Source: Bordetella holmesii ATCC 51541 (GTDB lineage Bacteria; Pseudomonadota; Gammaproteobacteria; Burkholderiales; Burkholderiaceae_B). Taken from it: 64,000 nt of DNA. Both the position numbers and the translations under genes were made by a program. The notes beneath the pieces are model-generated. The model did not search any database. It was not told the origin of the DNA and worked only from the letters and a program-made list of their open reading frames with translations. Positions 36,724-48,193 of the stretch are shown here, in pieces (the stretch's first letter is position 1; each line of letters begins with the position of its first letter). Location of the stretch: assembly GCA_000612485.1 (NCBI GenBank), contig CP007494.1, positions 248,001 through 312,000 of the forward strand. The letters run 5' to 3'.

Positions 36724-38017
36724 CTAAAAACCCAGCCAATGACCGCGCATGAATGTCTCGACCGGCATCGACAGCCTGGCCTTCCACTCATAGTCGCCCG
36801 AGAGCAGGTCGCGGTCCGCTCCCAGCGCGAACTGGACATTGCGCGCGAGTTCCATACTATGCTCCAGCCCCACCCGCCGGTCGTTGGGATCGCCCCGCCC
36901 GAACACATCGGATGTGTACGTGCCGCTCAGCGTCCCCATGCCGCGCAATGGCACGCCAGCCGACAATTTGCTGCGCATCAGCCGAGTCGATGCCGCGCCG
37001 CTGGTGTAGGAACTCAAGTCGCTAAAGCCTGCCCCGATGTCCTCGCCCGTCAGGCCTACCTTGACCGTGTCCGCCATGGTGACGTTGTAGCCGAAGCGAT
37101 AACGCCAGGCATTGACCGAGTCGAAGCTGCTCTGCGTGACGCCAGCCTCGAAGGTGCCGATATCCCCCGCGTTGTAGCGCGTGCCCATGCCCCGGGTAGT
37201 CAGGCCGTGGGTGGTCTGTAACTGGCCCTCCAGCGTGAGGGAGTTGCTCACCCCATAGCGCACGGTGCCGCTGCCAGCCGAAGCGCCATAATCCACCGCC
37301 CCAGCGGTGGCCGATGGATCCATGAGGTTGAGCCGCCCTACCGACGAGGAGTAACCGAATTTCGCCTCACCGATATTGCTGCTGCTGTCGAACTGATCCG
37401 ATATCTGTAGCTCTCCCAGCGCCGCAGTCGCGCCCCAGGCCGGCGAGTTGGCGGTCAGATTGCCAACCCCTACCGCCGGACCGCCCGAGGATCGATACAA
37501 CCAGTTACGATCACCATAACTCAGCGCAGGCCGCGCATTGATGGCCGAGAACCAGCGTGGTTGAGGCAGGATCACCCCCTGGCTCAACACCGGACGCGAG
37601 CCAGCCAACTCGCGGCGTTCCAGATCCAGGGCATAGGAAGGGCTTACCTGCGGCACCTCGTATTGCGGGAAGGCTCGCTGACAGTCAGAAGGCGCCTGTT
37701 GCCCCGGGGTTGGCGCCAGATCCGCCGGCGCGGGCGGACCCGCCCAATCAGCGCAAGGATCGGGTTCAGGGCTCAGCGCATAGCCCTCGACAGGACCGGG
37801 GAGCTGGACCGTTTGCGGCATGGCCGGCGCGAGCACACCGATGCCGTAACGCGCCGCTTGCCGCGTGGCGCTTGGCGCCTGGGCCGCAACGGGTGCAGCG
37901 GCAACGGGCGTTGTGGCCGCTTCGTCGGACACGGAGGGATCCGCCCCCCCCCGACATGGCGCAGGCGCCAAGCGCCATGTTGCCCGCCAATGCAATAGCC
38001 ACCACCGAGCGCGACAT
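36724..38017 (-). pseudogene. Putative beta-barrel outer-membrane lipoprotein, out of frame at a G9 tract
   Basis: Translation from the ATG at 38017 gives a signal peptide with lipobox LGAC and then enters a G9 tract (37944-37952). After it the frame is wrong. With eight G it continues ADPSVSDEAATTP through a Pro/Ala-rich linker into about 300 residues of alternating short strands rich in Gly, Tyr and Asn, and ends in WLGF with terminal Phe. That pattern suggests an outer-membrane barrel. I do not recognise the family. It may be phase-variable, a pseudogene, or a miscalled homopolymer. Confidence 0.65.
37944..37952 (-). repeat. G9 mononucleotide tract in the 5' coding region
   Basis: Nine consecutive C on the plus strand (G in the gene) lie right after the predicted lipobox Cys region. 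This is the longest G/C run I found in the window. Length changes would switch the downstream frame on (eight or eleven) or off (nine or ten). Confidence 0.9.
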
Positions 38018-38163
38018 CTGTAAACGAAGTTAATAAAACGGCACGGGATTTCCCGCGACCGCCCAGTGGCGGTTCGCTATTCTAGGACTAAATCTGGCGG
38101 GGCTTATTTCAGATCGTTTCTTTCCTCTTGTCGGACCTGCCCAAGCCCGGGCACTATCTCATC

Positions 38164-38865
38164 ATGGATAGCCCCCACACCAAACTGCTGGTCGTAGACG
38201 ACGATCCGGCGCTGCGCCAACTGCTGGCCGACTACCTCAACCGGCATGGCTACGATACCCTCCTGGCTCCCGATGCCAATGATCTGCCGGCACGCATCAC
38301 CCGCTACGCGCCCGACCTGCTGGTACTGGATCGCATGTTGCCCGGTGGCGACGGCGCGGACGCCTGCCGCCGCCTGCGCGAACAAGGCGAAGACATCCCC
38401 GTCATTCTGCTGACGGCGCGCGACGAGGCTGTCGACCGCATCATCGGTCTGGAGGCCGGCGCCGACGACTATCTTGGAAAACCCTTCGATCCGCGTGAAC
38501 TGCTGGCTCGCATCGAGGCCGTCCTGCGTCGCAAACGCGGGCCCTCGGCGCTGATCAAGGACCAACCGGTCACTTTCGGCCCCTTTCTTTTCGATCCCAC
38601 GACCCGCCAGTTGCTGCGCGACGGCACGATGGTCAAACTGACAGGTGGCGAGATCAATCTGCTCGAAGCGCTGGTCAGAAATGCCGGCAAACCGCTGTCA
38701 CGCGAGCGGCTGCTGGCGCTGGCGCGCGATGACGACAGCGGCGAGCGCAATGACCGCGCCATCGATATCGCCATCCTGCGCCTGCGCCGTGCCATCGAAG
38801 ATGATCCCAAACAGCCACGCTGGATTCAGACCGTCTGGGGTATCGGCTATCGATTCTCGCCCTGA
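38164..38865 (+). CDS. OmpR-family response regulator
   Basis: The 233-residue protein has a receiver domain with acidic pocket VVDDDPALR, phosphoacceptor Asp in LLVLDRMLPGGDG, switch Thr in LLTARD and Lys in GKPFD. A winged-helix output domain ends VWGIGYRF. ATG at 38164 is chosen; a TTG at 38128 would extend it by 12 residues. The partner kinase gene starts 12 bp after its stop. The outer-membrane lipoprotein gene diverges from it. Confidence 0.93.
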   Translation: MDSPHTKLLVVDDDPALRQLLADYLNRHGYDTLLAPDANDLPARITRYAPDLLVLDRMLPGGDGADACRRLREQGEDIPVILLTARDEAVDRIIGLEAGADDYLGKPFDPRELLARIEAVLRRKRGPSALIKDQPVTFGPFLFDPTTRQLLRDGTMVKLTGGEINLLEALVRNAGKPLSRERLLALARDDDSGERNDRAIDIAILRLRRAIEDDPKQPRWIQTVWGIGYRFSP

Positions 38866-38877
38866 GCGGCGCTCGCG

Positions 38878-40356
38878 ATGACATTCAAGCTGTCCCACGC
38901 CCTGCCGCGTTCGCTGCGCACCCGGCTCATCCTGCTTGTCCTCGGCTCGGTGCTGCTGGCCCAGGCCGCGACCTTGGGTACGATTTCGTATTACCGGCAC
39001 AAATTCATTGAGGATGTGGCGATCGGCTATATCGCCACCACCATTCGCACGCTGCGAGCTGCGCTGGCCCAGGTTCCCAGCGAAGACCGCGCCGAGTTCG
39101 TGCGCGCAGCCTCCCAGAACCAATGGCGTTGGTGGGCCAGGGGCCTGCCGGCGGAGGCCCGCCTGCAACGCTTGAACCGCCCGCCGCCTGACCGCATGGG
39201 GCCGGACGGCATGATGCCGCCGCCCGACGGCCCTCCTGGCATGATGCACCGGCGCTTCGACGACGATGACAGTGATAGACGCCACCGCCCTCCTCCTCCG
39301 CCGCACGACGATGTCAGGCGCGATTTGCGGCAATTGGTGCAGGAGCTCAACCTGCGCCTGAACGACGGCACGCGCGTGGCGCTGTCACGCGGGCCCCGCC
39401 CGGAAATCTTCATTTCGCTCGCCCCGAATACGGCCAGCGAAGATGTCCCCGCGCTGCGCGAATGGCTGGTCATCCCGCTGGACCGGCTGGATCCGCCCGT
39501 GGCAACGCCCATGGTCGCGTTCTGGCTGGGCGGGCTGGGCCTGGTGCTGTTGCTCGCGGCATGGTTCTCCTGGCATATCACCCGCCCGCTTACGCGGCTG
39601 GCCGACGCCGCCGACCGGCTGGCCGCAGGCCAGCCACAGCGCGTCGAGCCCTCCGGGCCGCACGAGACGCGCGTGCTCGGCGAACGCTTCAATGCCATGC
39701 TCGATGCACTGGCCGAATCCGATTCGGTGCGCCGCACCCTGCTGTCGGGCCTGCCTCACGATTTGAAAGGCCCTCTGTCGCGCATGTGGCTGCGCATCGA
39801 GATGACGGACGACCCGACTCTCAAGGATGGGTTGCGCAAGGACTTGCAGGATATGCAGCACATGGTGGATCAGTTCATCGGCTTTGTACGCGGCACGGAT
39901 CCGGCTGCCTACCGCTACGCGCCCCTGAATCTCAACGAGTGGATCAGCGAACGCGTGCAGAGCTGGAAAGGCGCAGGCACGGATATCTCCCTTACCGCAG
40001 CCGACGACGATAGCCTGACCATCCAGGGCGATGCCGTCGCCTTGGGGCGGCTGCTGGACAACCTGATCGGCAACGCCTTGCACCACGGCGCGCCGCCCAT
40101 CGACGTCCGGCTGCTAAACGATGCGCACTCCGCCATCATCGAGGTGGCCGACCACGGCGAGGGCATAGCGCCTCAACGGCGGGCCGAAGCGCTACGTCCT
40201 TTTGCCCGCCTGGACGGGGCCCGCACCCGCACGGGCAATGTGGGCCTCGGGCTGGCGCTGGCCGAAGCCATTGCGCGCGCGCACGGTGGCGACCTCGAAC
40301 TCGACAGCGGCAGCAGCGGCGGCCTGCTGGTTCGCATCCGCCTGCCGCGCGCCTGA
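38878..40356 (+). CDS. Sensor histidine kinase with Pro/Met/His-rich periplasmic insert
   Basis: The 492-residue kinase has two membrane helices (about residues 15-38 and 215-240) around a periplasmic domain, then HAMP, the HisKA H-box LPHDLKGPLSR with phospho-acceptor His294, N-box DNLIGNALHHG, and G-boxes ADHGEGI and GLGLALA. Residues about 101-145 are unusually rich in Pro, Met, His, Asp and Arg (for example GPDGMMPPPDGPPG, HRPPPPPHDD). This suggests metal contact or a flexible spacer. The signal is unknown. Confidence 0.9.
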   Translation: MTFKLSHALPRSLRTRLILLVLGSVLLAQAATLGTISYYRHKFIEDVAIGYIATTIRTLRAALAQVPSEDRAEFVRAASQNQWRWWARGLPAEARLQRLNRPPPDRMGPDGMMPPPDGPPGMMHRRFDDDDSDRRHRPPPPPHDDVRRDLRQLVQELNLRLNDGTRVALSRGPRPEIFISLAPNTASEDVPALREWLVIPLDRLDPPVATPMVAFWLGGLGLVLLLAAWFSWHITRPLTRLADAADRLAAGQPQRVEPSGPHETRVLGERFNAMLDALAESDSVRRTLLSGLPHDLKGPLSRMWLRIEMTDDPTLKDGLRKDLQDMQHMVDQFIGFVRGTDPAAYRYAPLNLNEWISERVQSWKGAGTDISLTAADDDSLTIQGDAVALGRLLDNLIGNALHHGAPPIDVRLLNDAHSAIIEVADHGEGIAPQRRAEALRPFARLDGARTRTGNVGLGLALAEAIARAHGGDLELDSGSSGGLLVRIRLPRA

Positions 40357-40371
40357 TCGGATCGGACTCGC

Positions 40372-41424
40372 TCAGCCCGGCGGTGGCAACAGCGCCGCGG
40401 CGCGGCGCTCCCGGCCAAAAACCGAGCGGTAAGCCAGAATATTGAACACCAGAACCACTGGCACTCCGATGACCACCCCGGCCAGCACCAGGCGCATGGA
40501 GTCCAACGCCCCGCTACCGTCCCATATCGTCATGTCGTCCAGAATGAGATACGGGAAAAAGCTGTAGGCCAGTCCGGCCAGCATCAGCAGGTACAGCGCC
40601 ACACACAACACAAAGGGCATCCAGGCGACGCGGTCCGCTTTGCCTGGCAGGCGGGCGAGCAACATTTCCGCCACCACGAACCCCAGCAGCATCAAGACCC
40701 ATACGCCCGCGGCAGCCCCAAGGTGCGCGGCATTGCTCCATTTATAGAATATCCCCGCGTTGGCCAGCCCCAGCGTCACGGCAATCGCCACCATGCCGGC
40801 CGCCGTCCAGCGGATGCCGTGACGCGCCCACGACACCGCACGGCGCTGCAACTCGCCGTCAATGCGCATGACCAGCCAGCAGGCCCCCAAAAGCGCGTAA
40901 GCCGCTACTGCGCACAGCCCGACGAACAATGAGAACCAACCATAGCCCGAGTCGCTCTGATAGTCGGTGGCGATACGGCCCAGAACCATACCCTGGCCCA
41001 TGGCCGCCAGAAGCGAGCCCACCCAGAACGCGAAAATCCAGCGCGGCTTGACCTCGGTGCTGGCGCGGATGCGAAACTCGAACGCGACACTGCGCAACAC
41101 GATGCCCAAGACCATGACCACCAAGGGCCCGTAGAGCTTGCCCATGATCACGCCCCAGGCAAAGGGAAAGGCTGCGCCCAGCAAGCCTATGCCCAGCAAA
41201 GGCCAGAATTCGTTGGCATCGCGCCATGGGCTGAGCAGTCCCATCATGCGGCCACGCTCCTCGGCCGGCGCGAACTGCAGCAGAATGCCTACGCCGATGT
41301 CGAAACCATCGAGCACGATGCCGGCCGCAATAAGCAGCAAGAGCAGGCCCATGAACACCATCGGCATCCAGAAGGTCGGATCTTCCGGACTCAGGCCCAG
41401 CGATGCGGCCAAGGTGGCGATCAT
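40372..41424 (-). CDS. Cytochrome bd-type quinol oxidase subunit II-like protein
   Basis: The 350-residue membrane protein keeps the CydB hallmark near its N-terminus (IVLDGFDIGVGILL) and a C-terminal block AYSFFPYLILDDMTIWD. About nine hydrophobic helices are present. The APHWDGNQVW region of E. coli CydB is changed to SPWRDANEFW. It starts inside the stop of the CydA-like gene (ATGA overlap) and so forms a two-gene unit. No CydX-like small gene is visible; the kinase gene ends 15 bp away on the other strand. Confidence 0.85.
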   Translation of the reverse strand: MIATLAASLGLSPEDPTFWMPMVFMGLLLLLIAAGIVLDGFDIGVGILLQFAPAEERGRMMGLLSPWRDANEFWPLLGIGLLGAAFPFAWGVIMGKLYGPLVVMVLGIVLRSVAFEFRIRASTEVKPRWIFAFWVGSLLAAMGQGMVLGRIATDYQSDSGYGWFSLFVGLCAVAAYALLGACWLVMRIDGELQRRAVSWARHGIRWTAAGMVAIAVTLGLANAGIFYKWSNAAHLGAAAGVWVLMLLGFVVAEMLLARLPGKADRVAWMPFVLCVALYLLMLAGLAYSFFPYLILDDMTIWDGSGALDSMRLVLAGVVIGVPVVLVFNILAYRSVFGRERRAAALLPPPG

Positions 41425-42758
41425 GATTTGCCTCCGATCTTGCGCACCGGCACCACTCCGTAGCGCGCGGCGTGAAACAACATCCCGATGAAGGCGCTCA
41501 GCAGCAAGGCGTATAACGCACCGTAACCGGCCAACCCCCACCAGAGCGTCGATGCAGACACGGCGCTGAGCACCTCGGATTGGGTGATCGTACGATTGAC
41601 GATGTAAGGCTGCAGCCCGATCTGGGCCACCCACACCCCCAGCACGACCGATACGCCGCCGGCAAACATCATGCCGGTGAGCATACGCAACCACCAGCGC
41701 GGCATTGCCGCCGGATCGTAACCTCGGCGAAAACTCAGGCAAAAAGAGAATAGCGCGGCCACAAACATCATCGCCCCCAGCAGCCACAAGGCGCGCAGGG
41801 CCAGAAACACCATGGCGACCGGCGGTGACATGCCGGAAAACTTATCCAGCCCGATGTACTCCGCATCGGCATCCTGGGCCAGCCAGCGCCCCCCCGAATT
41901 GCTCAGGGTCAGGGCGCTCTGATTGCGCTGCGCCGCCGTGTCGGGCACGCCGAGAATGACCAGCTCGGGCGTGGTGCCACTGTGCCAATAGCCTGCCAGC
42001 GCGGCGGCTTTGGCCGGCTGCAACCGGGCCACCACCTCCCCCAGTCCCCAGGCCGCGGGCGCCTGCAACAAGGCGGCGGCCAGGGCGATCACCAGCGCGG
42101 TTTTGTAGGCATGGCGTTCGCCGCCCACCAGTGGCCGGCGCAGTGCCTGCAAGGCCGTCACGCCCATGATGAGAAAGGCGGCCGCCAGCATGGCCCCCAG
42201 CACCGTCAAACCCATGCGCCAGCCGAACGAGGGGTTGAAAATTACCCGGACCCAGTCATAGACCTGATAGCGCCCATCAACGATGGCTGCGCCATCCGGC
42301 GTCTGCAGCCAGGACTGCAGGGAAACCGCCCAACCCACCGCGACCACCTGGCCGATCGCCACCATGAGCACGGCCAGCGTGTGCGCCAGATCGGAGACCT
42401 GACGCTGCCCAAAGAGCATCACCCCCAGAAAACAAGATTTCAGGATAAAGACCGACAACACGCCAAATCCCAGCAGCGGACCGGCCACATTGCCGATCTT
42501 GTCCATCAGGCCGGGCCACAGGCTGGCCAACTGCACGAGCACAGGCATGGCGCTGACCAGCGCCAGCACGAAAGACAAGGCGAAGATACGGACCCAGAAC
42601 CGGTAGGCGGCAAGCCAACCCGGTTGGCCGCTACGGGCTCGCAGCTTGAAAAACAACAGGATCCAGGCCAACGCCATGGAAAAGGCCAGGAACAAGGCCA
42701 GGAAGCTCAGGCTTGCCGTGAACTGGGTCCGGGCCAGCTGAAGAGGGGCGATATTCAT
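41421..42758 (-). CDS. CydA-like membrane protein lacking canonical haem ligands
   Basis: The 445-residue protein aligns by eye along its length with cytochrome bd subunit I: QF near the N-terminus, FLGVMLFG in helix III, a Q-loop-like region, and GLQPYIV in place of GRQPW. At positions equivalent to E. coli His19, His186 and Met393 (haem ligands) it has Leu. Glu99, Glu107 and Glu445 are replaced by Gly, Lys and Val, while Arg391 and Lys252 appear kept. Oxygen reduction by the usual mechanism seems impossible. It could be a divergent member of the bd superfamily with another role. ATG at 42758 is used. Confidence 0.8.
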   Translation of the reverse strand: MNIAPLQLARTQFTASLSFLALFLAFSMALAWILLFFKLRARSGQPGWLAAYRFWVRIFALSFVLALVSAMPVLVQLASLWPGLMDKIGNVAGPLLGFGVLSVFILKSCFLGVMLFGQRQVSDLAHTLAVLMVAIGQVVAVGWAVSLQSWLQTPDGAAIVDGRYQVYDWVRVIFNPSFGWRMGLTVLGAMLAAAFLIMGVTALQALRRPLVGGERHAYKTALVIALAAALLQAPAAWGLGEVVARLQPAKAAALAGYWHSGTTPELVILGVPDTAAQRNQSALTLSNSGGRWLAQDADAEYIGLDKFSGMSPPVAMVFLALRALWLLGAMMFVAALFSFCLSFRRGYDPAAMPRWWLRMLTGMMFAGGVSVVLGVWVAQIGLQPYIVNRTITQSEVLSAVSASTLWWGLAGYGALYALLLSAFIGMLFHAARYGVVPVRKIGGKS

Positions 42759-42876
42759 GATGGGCGGTAGTGTAGAGCCACTTCCACGGGCATGGGAGGC
42801 GGGTTTGCAACGGAAGTCCTTCCCGAACGTGGCAAAATGGGTCTTTTGTGGCCGCATTTTTCGACTTCGCCCCAGA

Positions 42877-44637
<1,761 letters not shown>

Positions 44638-46887: not shown

Positions 46888-48193
46888 GGTTCATCGCGGA
46901 ATAGCGTGGAGCCGTGCTTGATTGCCGTTACGCTTGATCCTTGATTTTTCAAGGATCAAGGCCGGGATCATGCTGGACCGCAAGACGATCGAGAGGTTGG
47001 GTGGGTGGGAAGGTTATCGGGTGGAGCGGGTCGTGTGGCCTGAAGGTGAGAGCCGGACGGTCACGATTTACCTGAAGCCTTCAGCGCGAACGATGCACTG
47101 CGAGCACTGCGGCAACCGATGTCGGCAGGTGCATGAGACGACCACGCGCCGGGTGCGGGATCTGCCGCTAATGGCGCTGCGAGTGACGCTGGTAGTGCCG
47201 CGTCGGCGGGTCTGGTGCGAGCAGTGCGGTGGACCGCATCTGGAGAGGCTGAGCTGGCTGGGCCGTTACCAGCGAGTGACCGACCGGCTGGCCGAGGCGG
47301 TCAGCCAGTTGCTTGAGTCCAGCAACATTCTGGCCGTGGCGCGCTTCTTCCAACTGGGTTGGCACACGGTCAAGGCGCTGGACAAGGCCCTGCTGCGACG
47401 GGCGATCCAAGAGCCGGACTGGAGCCAGATCCACTACCTAGCGATGGACGAGTTCGCTCTACACAAGGGCCATCGTTATGCCACGGTCGTTGTCGATCCG
47501 ATCCGCCGTCAGGTGCTATGGATCGGTGATGGCCGCTCGCGCGAGACGGCCAGAGCCTTCTTCGAACAACTGCCAACTGGGGTTGCCCAGCAGATCCGGG
47601 CCGTAGCGATCGACATGACGACGGCCTATGAGCTGGAGATCCAGGCCAACTGCCCCAACGCCGAGATCGTCTACGACCTGTTCCACGTCGTGGCCAAGTA
47701 CGGCCGTGAAGTGATAGACCGGGTGCGTGTAGACCAAGCGAACCAGTTGCGGCACGACAAGCCGGCCCGCCGGGTGATCAAGTCCAGTCGCTGGCTACTG
47801 CTGCGCAATCGCAAAAACCTCGATCCGTGCCAATCGGTAAAGTTGGACGAGTTGCTCCAGGCCAACCAGCCCTTGCTCACCGCTTATCTGATGCGCGATG
47901 AGCTCAAACAGCTGTGGTTCTACCAACACCCCGGCTACGCCCGCCAGGCATGGGATCACTGGCTGCAACAGGCTCGGGGCAGCGGCATCGCCGCCTTGGC
48001 TCACTTCGCGCTCAAGCTAAAAGCCTATCTGCACGGGATTCTGTCTCGCTGTCGCCACCGGCTCAACACCAGCATCGTCGAGGGCATCAACAACACCATC
48101 AAAGTCATCAAGCGCCGCTCCTACGGCTACCGCGATCAGGAGTACTTCTTCCTCAAGATCCGGTCTGCATTCCCCGGTATTCCTCGATGAACC
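46888..48193 (+). mobile_element. IS1001-like element (ISL3 family), copy 3, complete
   Basis: The 1306-bp element has the same inverted repeats as copies 1 and 2. Its 8-bp target duplication is CAAAAAAA (46880-46887 and 48194-48201). The target was the A run of the bidirectional terminator between minE and the glycine-zipper lipoprotein gene; the stem remains on the right side. Confidence 0.95.
46970..48190 (+). CDS. ISL3-family transposase (IS1001-like), intact
   Basis: Intact 406-residue transposase with the zinc-ribbon and DDE features described for copy 2. One residue differs from copies 1 and 2: Ser in KRRSYGY where they have Ala. It reads away from minCDE toward the convergent lipoprotein gene. 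Confidence 0.95.
   Translation: MLDRKTIERLGGWEGYRVERVVWPEGESRTVTIYLKPSARTMHCEHCGNRCRQVHETTTRRVRDLPLMALRVTLVVPRRRVWCEQCGGPHLERLSWLGRYQRVTDRLAEAVSQLLESSNILAVARFFQLGWHTVKALDKALLRRAIQEPDWSQIHYLAMDEFALHKGHRYATVVVDPIRRQVLWIGDGRSRETARAFFEQLPTGVAQQIRAVAIDMTTAYELEIQANCPNAEIVYDLFHVVAKYGREVIDRVRVDQANQLRHDKPARRVIKSSRWLLLRNRKNLDPCQSVKLDELLQANQPLLTAYLMRDELKQLWFYQHPGYARQAWDHWLQQARGSGIAALAHFALKLKAYLHGILSRCRHRLNTSIVEGINNTIKVIKRRSYGYRDQEYFFLKIRSAFPGIPR

Follow-up and report, generated by a model that had tools for sequence, protein, structure and literature searches.

This locus raises the question of what a cydAB-like gene pair does when its CydA subunit appears to have lost the residues that hold haem. The window is the whole stretch of 64,000 nucleotides that was analysed, from a Bordetella holmesii genome of one contig of 3,699,674 bases; the features of the locus are shown in Table 1. 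An earlier sequence-only reading had placed the CydA-like gene correctly, to which the minus strand is added here, and its description of the gene as full length, unbroken and coupled to a CydB-like gene holds: the reading frame is open along all 445 aa and the two genes overlap by ATGA. As in bd oxidases, homologues of CydA and CydB are found in one operon, and the profile match to solved bd subunits covers nearly the full length; the bd fold is putative at this level. The NCBIfam cyd equivalog models remain under their cut-offs (best cydA 81 of 1025 bits, cydB 76 of 117), and homologues are named in databases as oxidase subunits. Identity is 92% to Bordetella genomosp. 12 and 88% to B. hinzii. 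A second cydAB, canonical and with all ligands kept, is found elsewhere in the genome. The divergent neighbour is, to judge from its sequence, presumably glnS (glutaminyl-tRNA synthetase). Concerning an FNR/ANR-type box upstream of cydA, the best matches in 92 upstream regions were not above the shuffled background.

Table 1. Features of the cydAB-like locus, in positions of the window; codon places are those of the residues discussed in the text.
Feature	Position	Strand	Remarks
CydA-like subunit without haem ligands	41421..42758	minus	445 aa; Pfam PF01654, E 1.6e-97 over residues 8-434
CydB-like subunit	40372..41424	minus	350 aa; Pfam PF02322, E 6.1e-60
Intergenic region between cydA-like gene and divergent glnS	42759..42876		
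glnS, constant divergent neighbour	42877..44637	plus	used as synteny marker
Histidine kinase (HAMP, HATPase_c), convergent with cydB	38878..40356	plus	domain matches
Response regulator, receiver and Trans_reg_C domains, OmpR type	38128..38865	plus	domain matches
Codon L20 (E. coli H19)	42699-42701	minus	place by arithmetic
Codon G99 (E. coli E99)	42462-42464	minus	place by arithmetic
Codon K107 (E. coli E107)	42438-42440	minus	place by arithmetic; agrees with place of CydA motif
Codon L184 (E. coli H186)	42207-42209	minus	place by arithmetic
Codon L324 (E. coli M393)	41787-41789	minus	place by arithmetic
Codon Q379 (E. coli E445)	41622-41624	minus	place by arithmetic
CydB Arg68 codon (Trp in oxidase CydB)	41221-41223	minus	family-specific residue; place by motif

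The register of the window CydA was fixed by two alignments to E. coli CydA (6rko): a phmmer alignment of the window protein, weak in its C-terminal half (i-Evalue 0.019), and that of a 23-sequence family profile, which matched the two CydA halves with i-Evalues of 1.5e-39 and 6.3e-8. His19 is here assumed to be a haem ligand, and Lys252 and Glu257 are presumably the residues of the quinol site. Both alignments give Leu at H19, H186 and M393 (L20, L184, L324), Gly at E99 (G99) and Lys at E107 (K107), as the sequence-only reading had seen by eye; the Val that it gave for E445 was a misalignment, this residue (the Glu of AEYGRQP) being matched by Gln379. The positions of the b558 ligands (H186/M393) are therefore Leu/Leu and those of the high-spin ligands (H19/E445/E99) Leu/Gln/Gly, so the residues by which a bd oxidase holds its haems are missing. 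At the quinol site K252 is present (as K250) and E257 is replaced by Ala, which leaves the pair incomplete. R391 is kept (as R322), R448 is Leu, and GRQP has become GLQP, the first and last of these also in agreement with the earlier description. Published excerpts on bd oxidases give Glu99 and Glu445 (PMC6853902) and His186 and Met393 (PMC5322542) as haem ligands, and describe the Met393 region as hardly varying among bd types (PMC5322542). The window CydA contains only four His (126, 216, 259 and 429), none at a ligand site, as had been claimed. H126 is conserved in 136/138 copies and H429 in 127/138; since both are also His in the canonical CydA of the genome, where they are not known ligands, no shifted His ligand is seen. 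We infer that the complex binds no haem, and haem binding together with quinol oxidation is, on these alignments, very unlikely.

Looking at the relatives, we used 74 loci from named genomes and 128 from further genomes, two sets that overlap, each locus with flanks of about 1.5 kb. In the named set 46 copies carry Lys107 and lack E99, H186 and E257, and in the remaining 28 no checked residue is lost; the 46 belong to Bordetella, Achromobacter and Paracandidimonas, or to MAGs that carry the label Achromobacter, Bordetella or Alcaligenaceae. Among the 128 further loci the Lys/Arg type accounts for 95 and the Glu type for 32, and one is a fragment that is blank at 107. Leaving out L179 (same place as L089) and L091 (a fragment blank at 107), 141 Lys/Arg copies (Lys107 in 139, Arg107 in 2) are compared with 60 Glu copies; these are copies and not independent species, in groups defined by residue 107, for which glnS linkage is the independent label. 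glnS lies in the stretch of 92/95 further and 44/46 named Lys/Arg copies, and in 0/60 of the Glu type. All 136 glnS-linked copies thus carry Lys or Arg at 107. Where no glnS is found within the stretch (65 copies with a letter at 107), 60 have Glu and five Lys/Arg; L043, L048, L168 and L173 among these five lie at contig ends, and L090 starts only at residue 97. E99, H186 and E257 are each kept in 0/141 Lys/Arg copies vs 60/60 Glu copies, and the Glu type keeps all twelve checked residues. Of the 141, 7 retain H19 (three have no letter there), 10 retain M393 and 6 retain E445, and high-spin haem could thus still be bound by a few of them. Also, the cydA–cydB overlap is four bases in 86 of the 94 measurable gaps among the 95 further copies. 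From 307 homologous proteins, drawn from the best 8000 candidates, the 120 listed (query included) all have Lys107 and none has E99 or H186; H19 is kept in 5 of these, M393 in 11 and E445 in 3. P0002, identical to the query, was left out of the residue counts.

We built a maximum-likelihood tree from 72 CydA sequences, masking the checked columns and leaving out the long branches L190, L195 and L196; in it the ligand-free copies form a single clade (100/100), whose stem has a length of 0.87. The window copy lies inside this clade. Its sister group, L160 and L167, comes from within the family and keeps all ligands. Placed on the tree, E99, E107, H186 and E257 require one change each, H19 three, and M393 and E445 four each. 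The simplest account of this pattern is that the first four residues were lost once and H19, M393 and E445 later and repeatedly; loss would then have begun with the electron-entry haem and the Glu residues for quinol and proton, the active-site ligands following. With such a stepwise record, the change of a respiratory enzyme to another role can be tested directly. L134 keeps H19, M393 and E445, and L148, L170, L172 and L175 keep H19 and E445, all without H186, E99 and E107; these five are natural intermediates for spectroscopy. With 445 aa, a short Q-loop and a tree position inside CIO, the protein belongs to this subtype by ancestry only, the label being the one that we assign from Q-loop length and tree.

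Concerning the distribution, the CydA motif K-S-C-F-L-G-x-M-L-F, searched as DNA, is found in 122/268 genomes of the family and in 1/369 of a class-wide draw, that one being the window genome itself; its order is represented in the draw by just three more genomes. For the CydB motif P-W-R-D-x-N-x-x-W the figures are 173/268 family genomes and 34/43 genera. A reversed control pattern matches 2 genomes, and the motif matches in G001:C28 and G188 look like chance, which makes 33 genera the safer figure. Three genera (g3, g5 and g39; L207-L216) possess a glnS-linked locus in which CydA has shrunk to 383-399 aa beside a CydB of 338-354 aa. In these ten short CydA, whose C-terminal half aligns poorly, the column of E257 is empty in 10/10 and that of K252 in 9/10; K107 is found in 8/10, Arg in one and Glu in one of doubtful alignment. 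Their CydB partners carry R68 in 8/10 and R111 in 10/10. Quinone sensing, which the earlier reading had suggested as a possible function, is unlikely at the known quinol site, given the absence of E257 from all 141 copies and from these reduced relatives. A separate CydA-type gene in G079 (C1:3891239-3892506) appears split in two, with two TGA stops in one of the pieces, and looks broken.

The claim that the pair is maintained and not decaying is borne out by dN/dS against four near relatives, which is 0.083-0.106 for cydA and 0.026-0.049 for cydB (the fourth pair, with dS of about 1.3, is less reliable). By these ratios the pair is under purifying selection. The cydA gene is less constrained than glnS in four of four pairs and than the canonical cydA1 in three of four (cydA1 0.019-0.042; fourth 0.093). 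The canonical pair shows the reverse order, cydA1 lying below cydB1 in all four pairs, with cydB1 matched over 260-267 codons only. The same is seen in protein identity: CydB exceeds CydA in 854/861 pairs of the ligand-free clade (57.1 vs 46.4%) and in just 32/276 pairs of CIO relatives (48.4 vs 54.0%), a comparison restricted to rows with a CydB of 300-400 aa and made without L174, L195 and L196. Judged by both measures, the load of constraint is moved from CydA to CydB. With the haem ligands lost and the pair maintained, another function is needed, as the sequence-only reading had argued.

For CydB we use what we take to be the E. coli numbering. By alignment, CydA R57 corresponds to K57 and R119 to D119 of the E. 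coli path; in CydB, E116 corresponds to D105, R120 to K109, D69 to D58 and W74 to Trp63, and R68 adjoins D58. R57 is found in 139/139 CydA copies with letters and R119 in 136/141. CydB R68 is present in 136/136 copies with letters vs Trp in 41/41 others, D69 in 135/137, R118 in 136/137, and R111, E116, R120, R205, W206 and D302 each in 137/137; these counts leave out rows outside 310-400 aa. R57 and R120 are conservative, since they replace Lys; positive charge is newly gained at K107, R119 and R68. In E. coli, according to the structural excerpts of PMC6853902, a chain of waters runs along the interface to haem d (D119A-K57A-K109B-D105B-Y379B-D58B), an O2 channel begins above Trp63 of CydB, and CydB holds ubiquinone-8 at the place of the haems. 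By the alignment, the pair studied here retains the CydB half of this old path, which no longer ends at a haem ligand. CydA S140 is found in 60/60 copies of the Glu type vs 15/141 of the Lys/Arg type, and its loss from most of the latter speaks against a working proton path.

The best explanation as a whole, which we consider probable, is a haem-free pseudo-oxidase: a heterodimer of CydAB fold with its function in CydB and the interface. That the complex is haem-free and not an oxidase is, from the replaced residues, highly probable. Its ancestor would have been a short-Q-loop (CIO-type) bd oxidase, from which quinol oxidation and O2 reduction were lost, and its function would now be located in CydB and at the CydA–CydB interface. 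A polar path facing the cytoplasm would be kept on the CydB side (equivalents of D58, R100, D105, R107 and K109), and the interface path would have become more basic (E107 to Lys, Arg in the place of D119, CydB W57 to Arg), with CydB E116 as the acidic partner. Because this path is retained and more basic, and constraint is weighted towards CydB, the complex may bind or pass a small, perhaps anionic, solute or signal its presence, at low abundance and without carrying electrons. The path for an anion or other ligand is a tentative part of the proposal, and the identity of the solute is a guess. A non-redox, CydB-centred transporter, channel or ligand sensor, in which the old proton/oxygen path forms an anion site lined by invariant Arg and Lys, is a rather doubtful extension. 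The conserved Arg and Lys could be structural salt bridges instead.

The closest known system is CioAB, the CIO-type bd oxidase with a short Q-loop, which shares the two-gene operon and has the closest sequences; the pair studied here differs in the loss of haem ligands, proton Glu107 and quinol Glu257, in the change of a CydB Trp to Arg, and in the reversed constraint on the subunits. Homology with bd-I (6rko) and bd-II (7ose) of E. coli extends across both CydA halves and CydB, but the window protein lacks ligands for all three haems (b558, b595, d) and has a short Q-loop; only 15 bases lie between cydB and the next gene, so there is no CydX there. The CydAA' type, in the excerpts of PMC8509429 and PMC10839748, is an earlier example of a superfamily member with a diverged CydA paralogue; it combines CydA with that paralogue as a (putative) O2 reductase, whereas here CydA, its ligands gone, is paired with a CydB (PF02322). 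Our searches of an open-licence library showed no description of the haem-free CydA clade.

Some experimental data exist for what is probably the same pair in B. bronchiseptica, cydAB3 (BB4012-4011), annotated and tested as a high-affinity oxidase (PMC11257404). The published deletion of 2373 bp, which starts 41 nt upstream of cydA3 and ends at nt 994 of cydB3 (PMC11257404), fits a CydA of 446 aa and a 4-nt overlap within one base; the identity thus comes from deletion length, not sequence. According to excerpts of the same study (PMC11257404), the single deletion grew as wild type in ambient air and the locus was dispensable for persistence in mice, a strain with cyd3 only could not be made, and cyd3 transcripts were low, with no change of cyd3 with O2 or CO2 named there. 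These data agree with a non-oxidase, although the failure to obtain a cyd3-only strain would also follow from low expression by itself. In 5% CO2, growth was impaired when cyd3 and four other loci were missing together (PMC11257404), which leaves room for a respiratory part of one of those five. An excerpt of PMC13367067 lists CydAB3 as a bd-type oxidase that is not biochemically characterised.

Most bacteria of the Bordetella/Achromobacter family keep an oxidase-annotated pair which, with its haem-holding parts lost, almost certainly does another membrane job. According to the 2021 classification, as cited in PMC8509429, helices that bind the two active-site haems are common to the whole bd superfamily; the ligand-free clade breaks this rule, in a family that includes human and animal pathogens, and lists of the oxidases of Bordetella and Achromobacter would have to be corrected. 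On the rather doubtful reading of a transporter, channel or ligand sensor, the bd fold would have been recast as a non-redox machine and kept through most of the history of the family, hidden under the label 'oxidase'.

Four other explanations of the locus were weighed against the haem-free pseudo-oxidase. The pair could be a degenerate copy that helps or regulates a canonical bd oxidase, as an accessory or assembly partner. The window genome has its canonical cydAB besides. Another PF01654 protein, counted by its Pfam family, is found in 57/60 genomes with the haem-free CydA and in 21/30 family genomes without a visible copy of the locus (ten genomes with weak matches set aside). However, these are raw counts uncorrected for kinship, three of the 60 (G202, G127 and G157, drafts of 40-60 contigs and 99% complete) have no other PF01654 protein, and the haem-free CydA has its own coupled cydB; we regard the accessory role as unlikely.

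A Lys-ligated haem protein, with haem held by other residues such as Lys107 near the old haem d/b595 site, would fit the constancy of Lys/Arg107 in the 141 copies and in all those linked to glnS, and titles cited in PMC6853902 place Glu107 of E. coli close to the haem d/b595 centre. It is improbable, as Arg, present in two copies, is not a usual haem ligand, neither H186 of haem b558 nor the quinol Glu is left, and no new His is conserved; M114 and M132 are conserved, yet off ligand positions.

Just as improbable is a membrane sensor that gives input to the adjoining two-component system. Of the 48 loci that extend 1 kb or more beyond the end of cydB, 37 have a histidine kinase gene within 700 bp on that side, and the low expression of cydAB3 in the cited excerpt (PMC11257404) fits a sensor. 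But the kinase gene is convergent with cydB, so the two do not form one operon; recQ and another gene lie between kinase and cydB in Achromobacter; and the rest of the gene order (glnS, minCD) is also conserved, so that the kinase linkage may be plain synteny. Coupling of the cydAB pair to the two-component system is a weak proposition.

A decaying remnant of an oxidase is scarcely credible. In its favour are the ligand places that drift to many residues, the long stem (0.87), a CydA dN/dS above most neighbours tested, the further shortening of CydA in three genera and the cydB3 broken in 7/14 B. pertussis strains (excerpt of PMC11257404). Decay in single lineages is real, but decay of the family as a whole is ruled out by dN/dS of 0.026-0.106 for both genes, beside which stand the lack of internal stops among the matches listed, the spread of the CydB motif and the invariant new residues.

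Some further observations concern the surroundings of the locus. A protein of 423 aa (36724-37995, minus strand), which has no Pfam match, lies between the two-component system and recQ, and the block from recQ to the kinase is inverted in Achromobacter loci relative to most Bordetella. The kinase contains a stretch rich in Pro, Met, His and Asp at about residues 100-145, which could bind metal. Downstream of minD, an ISL3-family transposase with a zinc ribbon of the IS204/IS1001 type is found at 46922-48190 on the plus strand.
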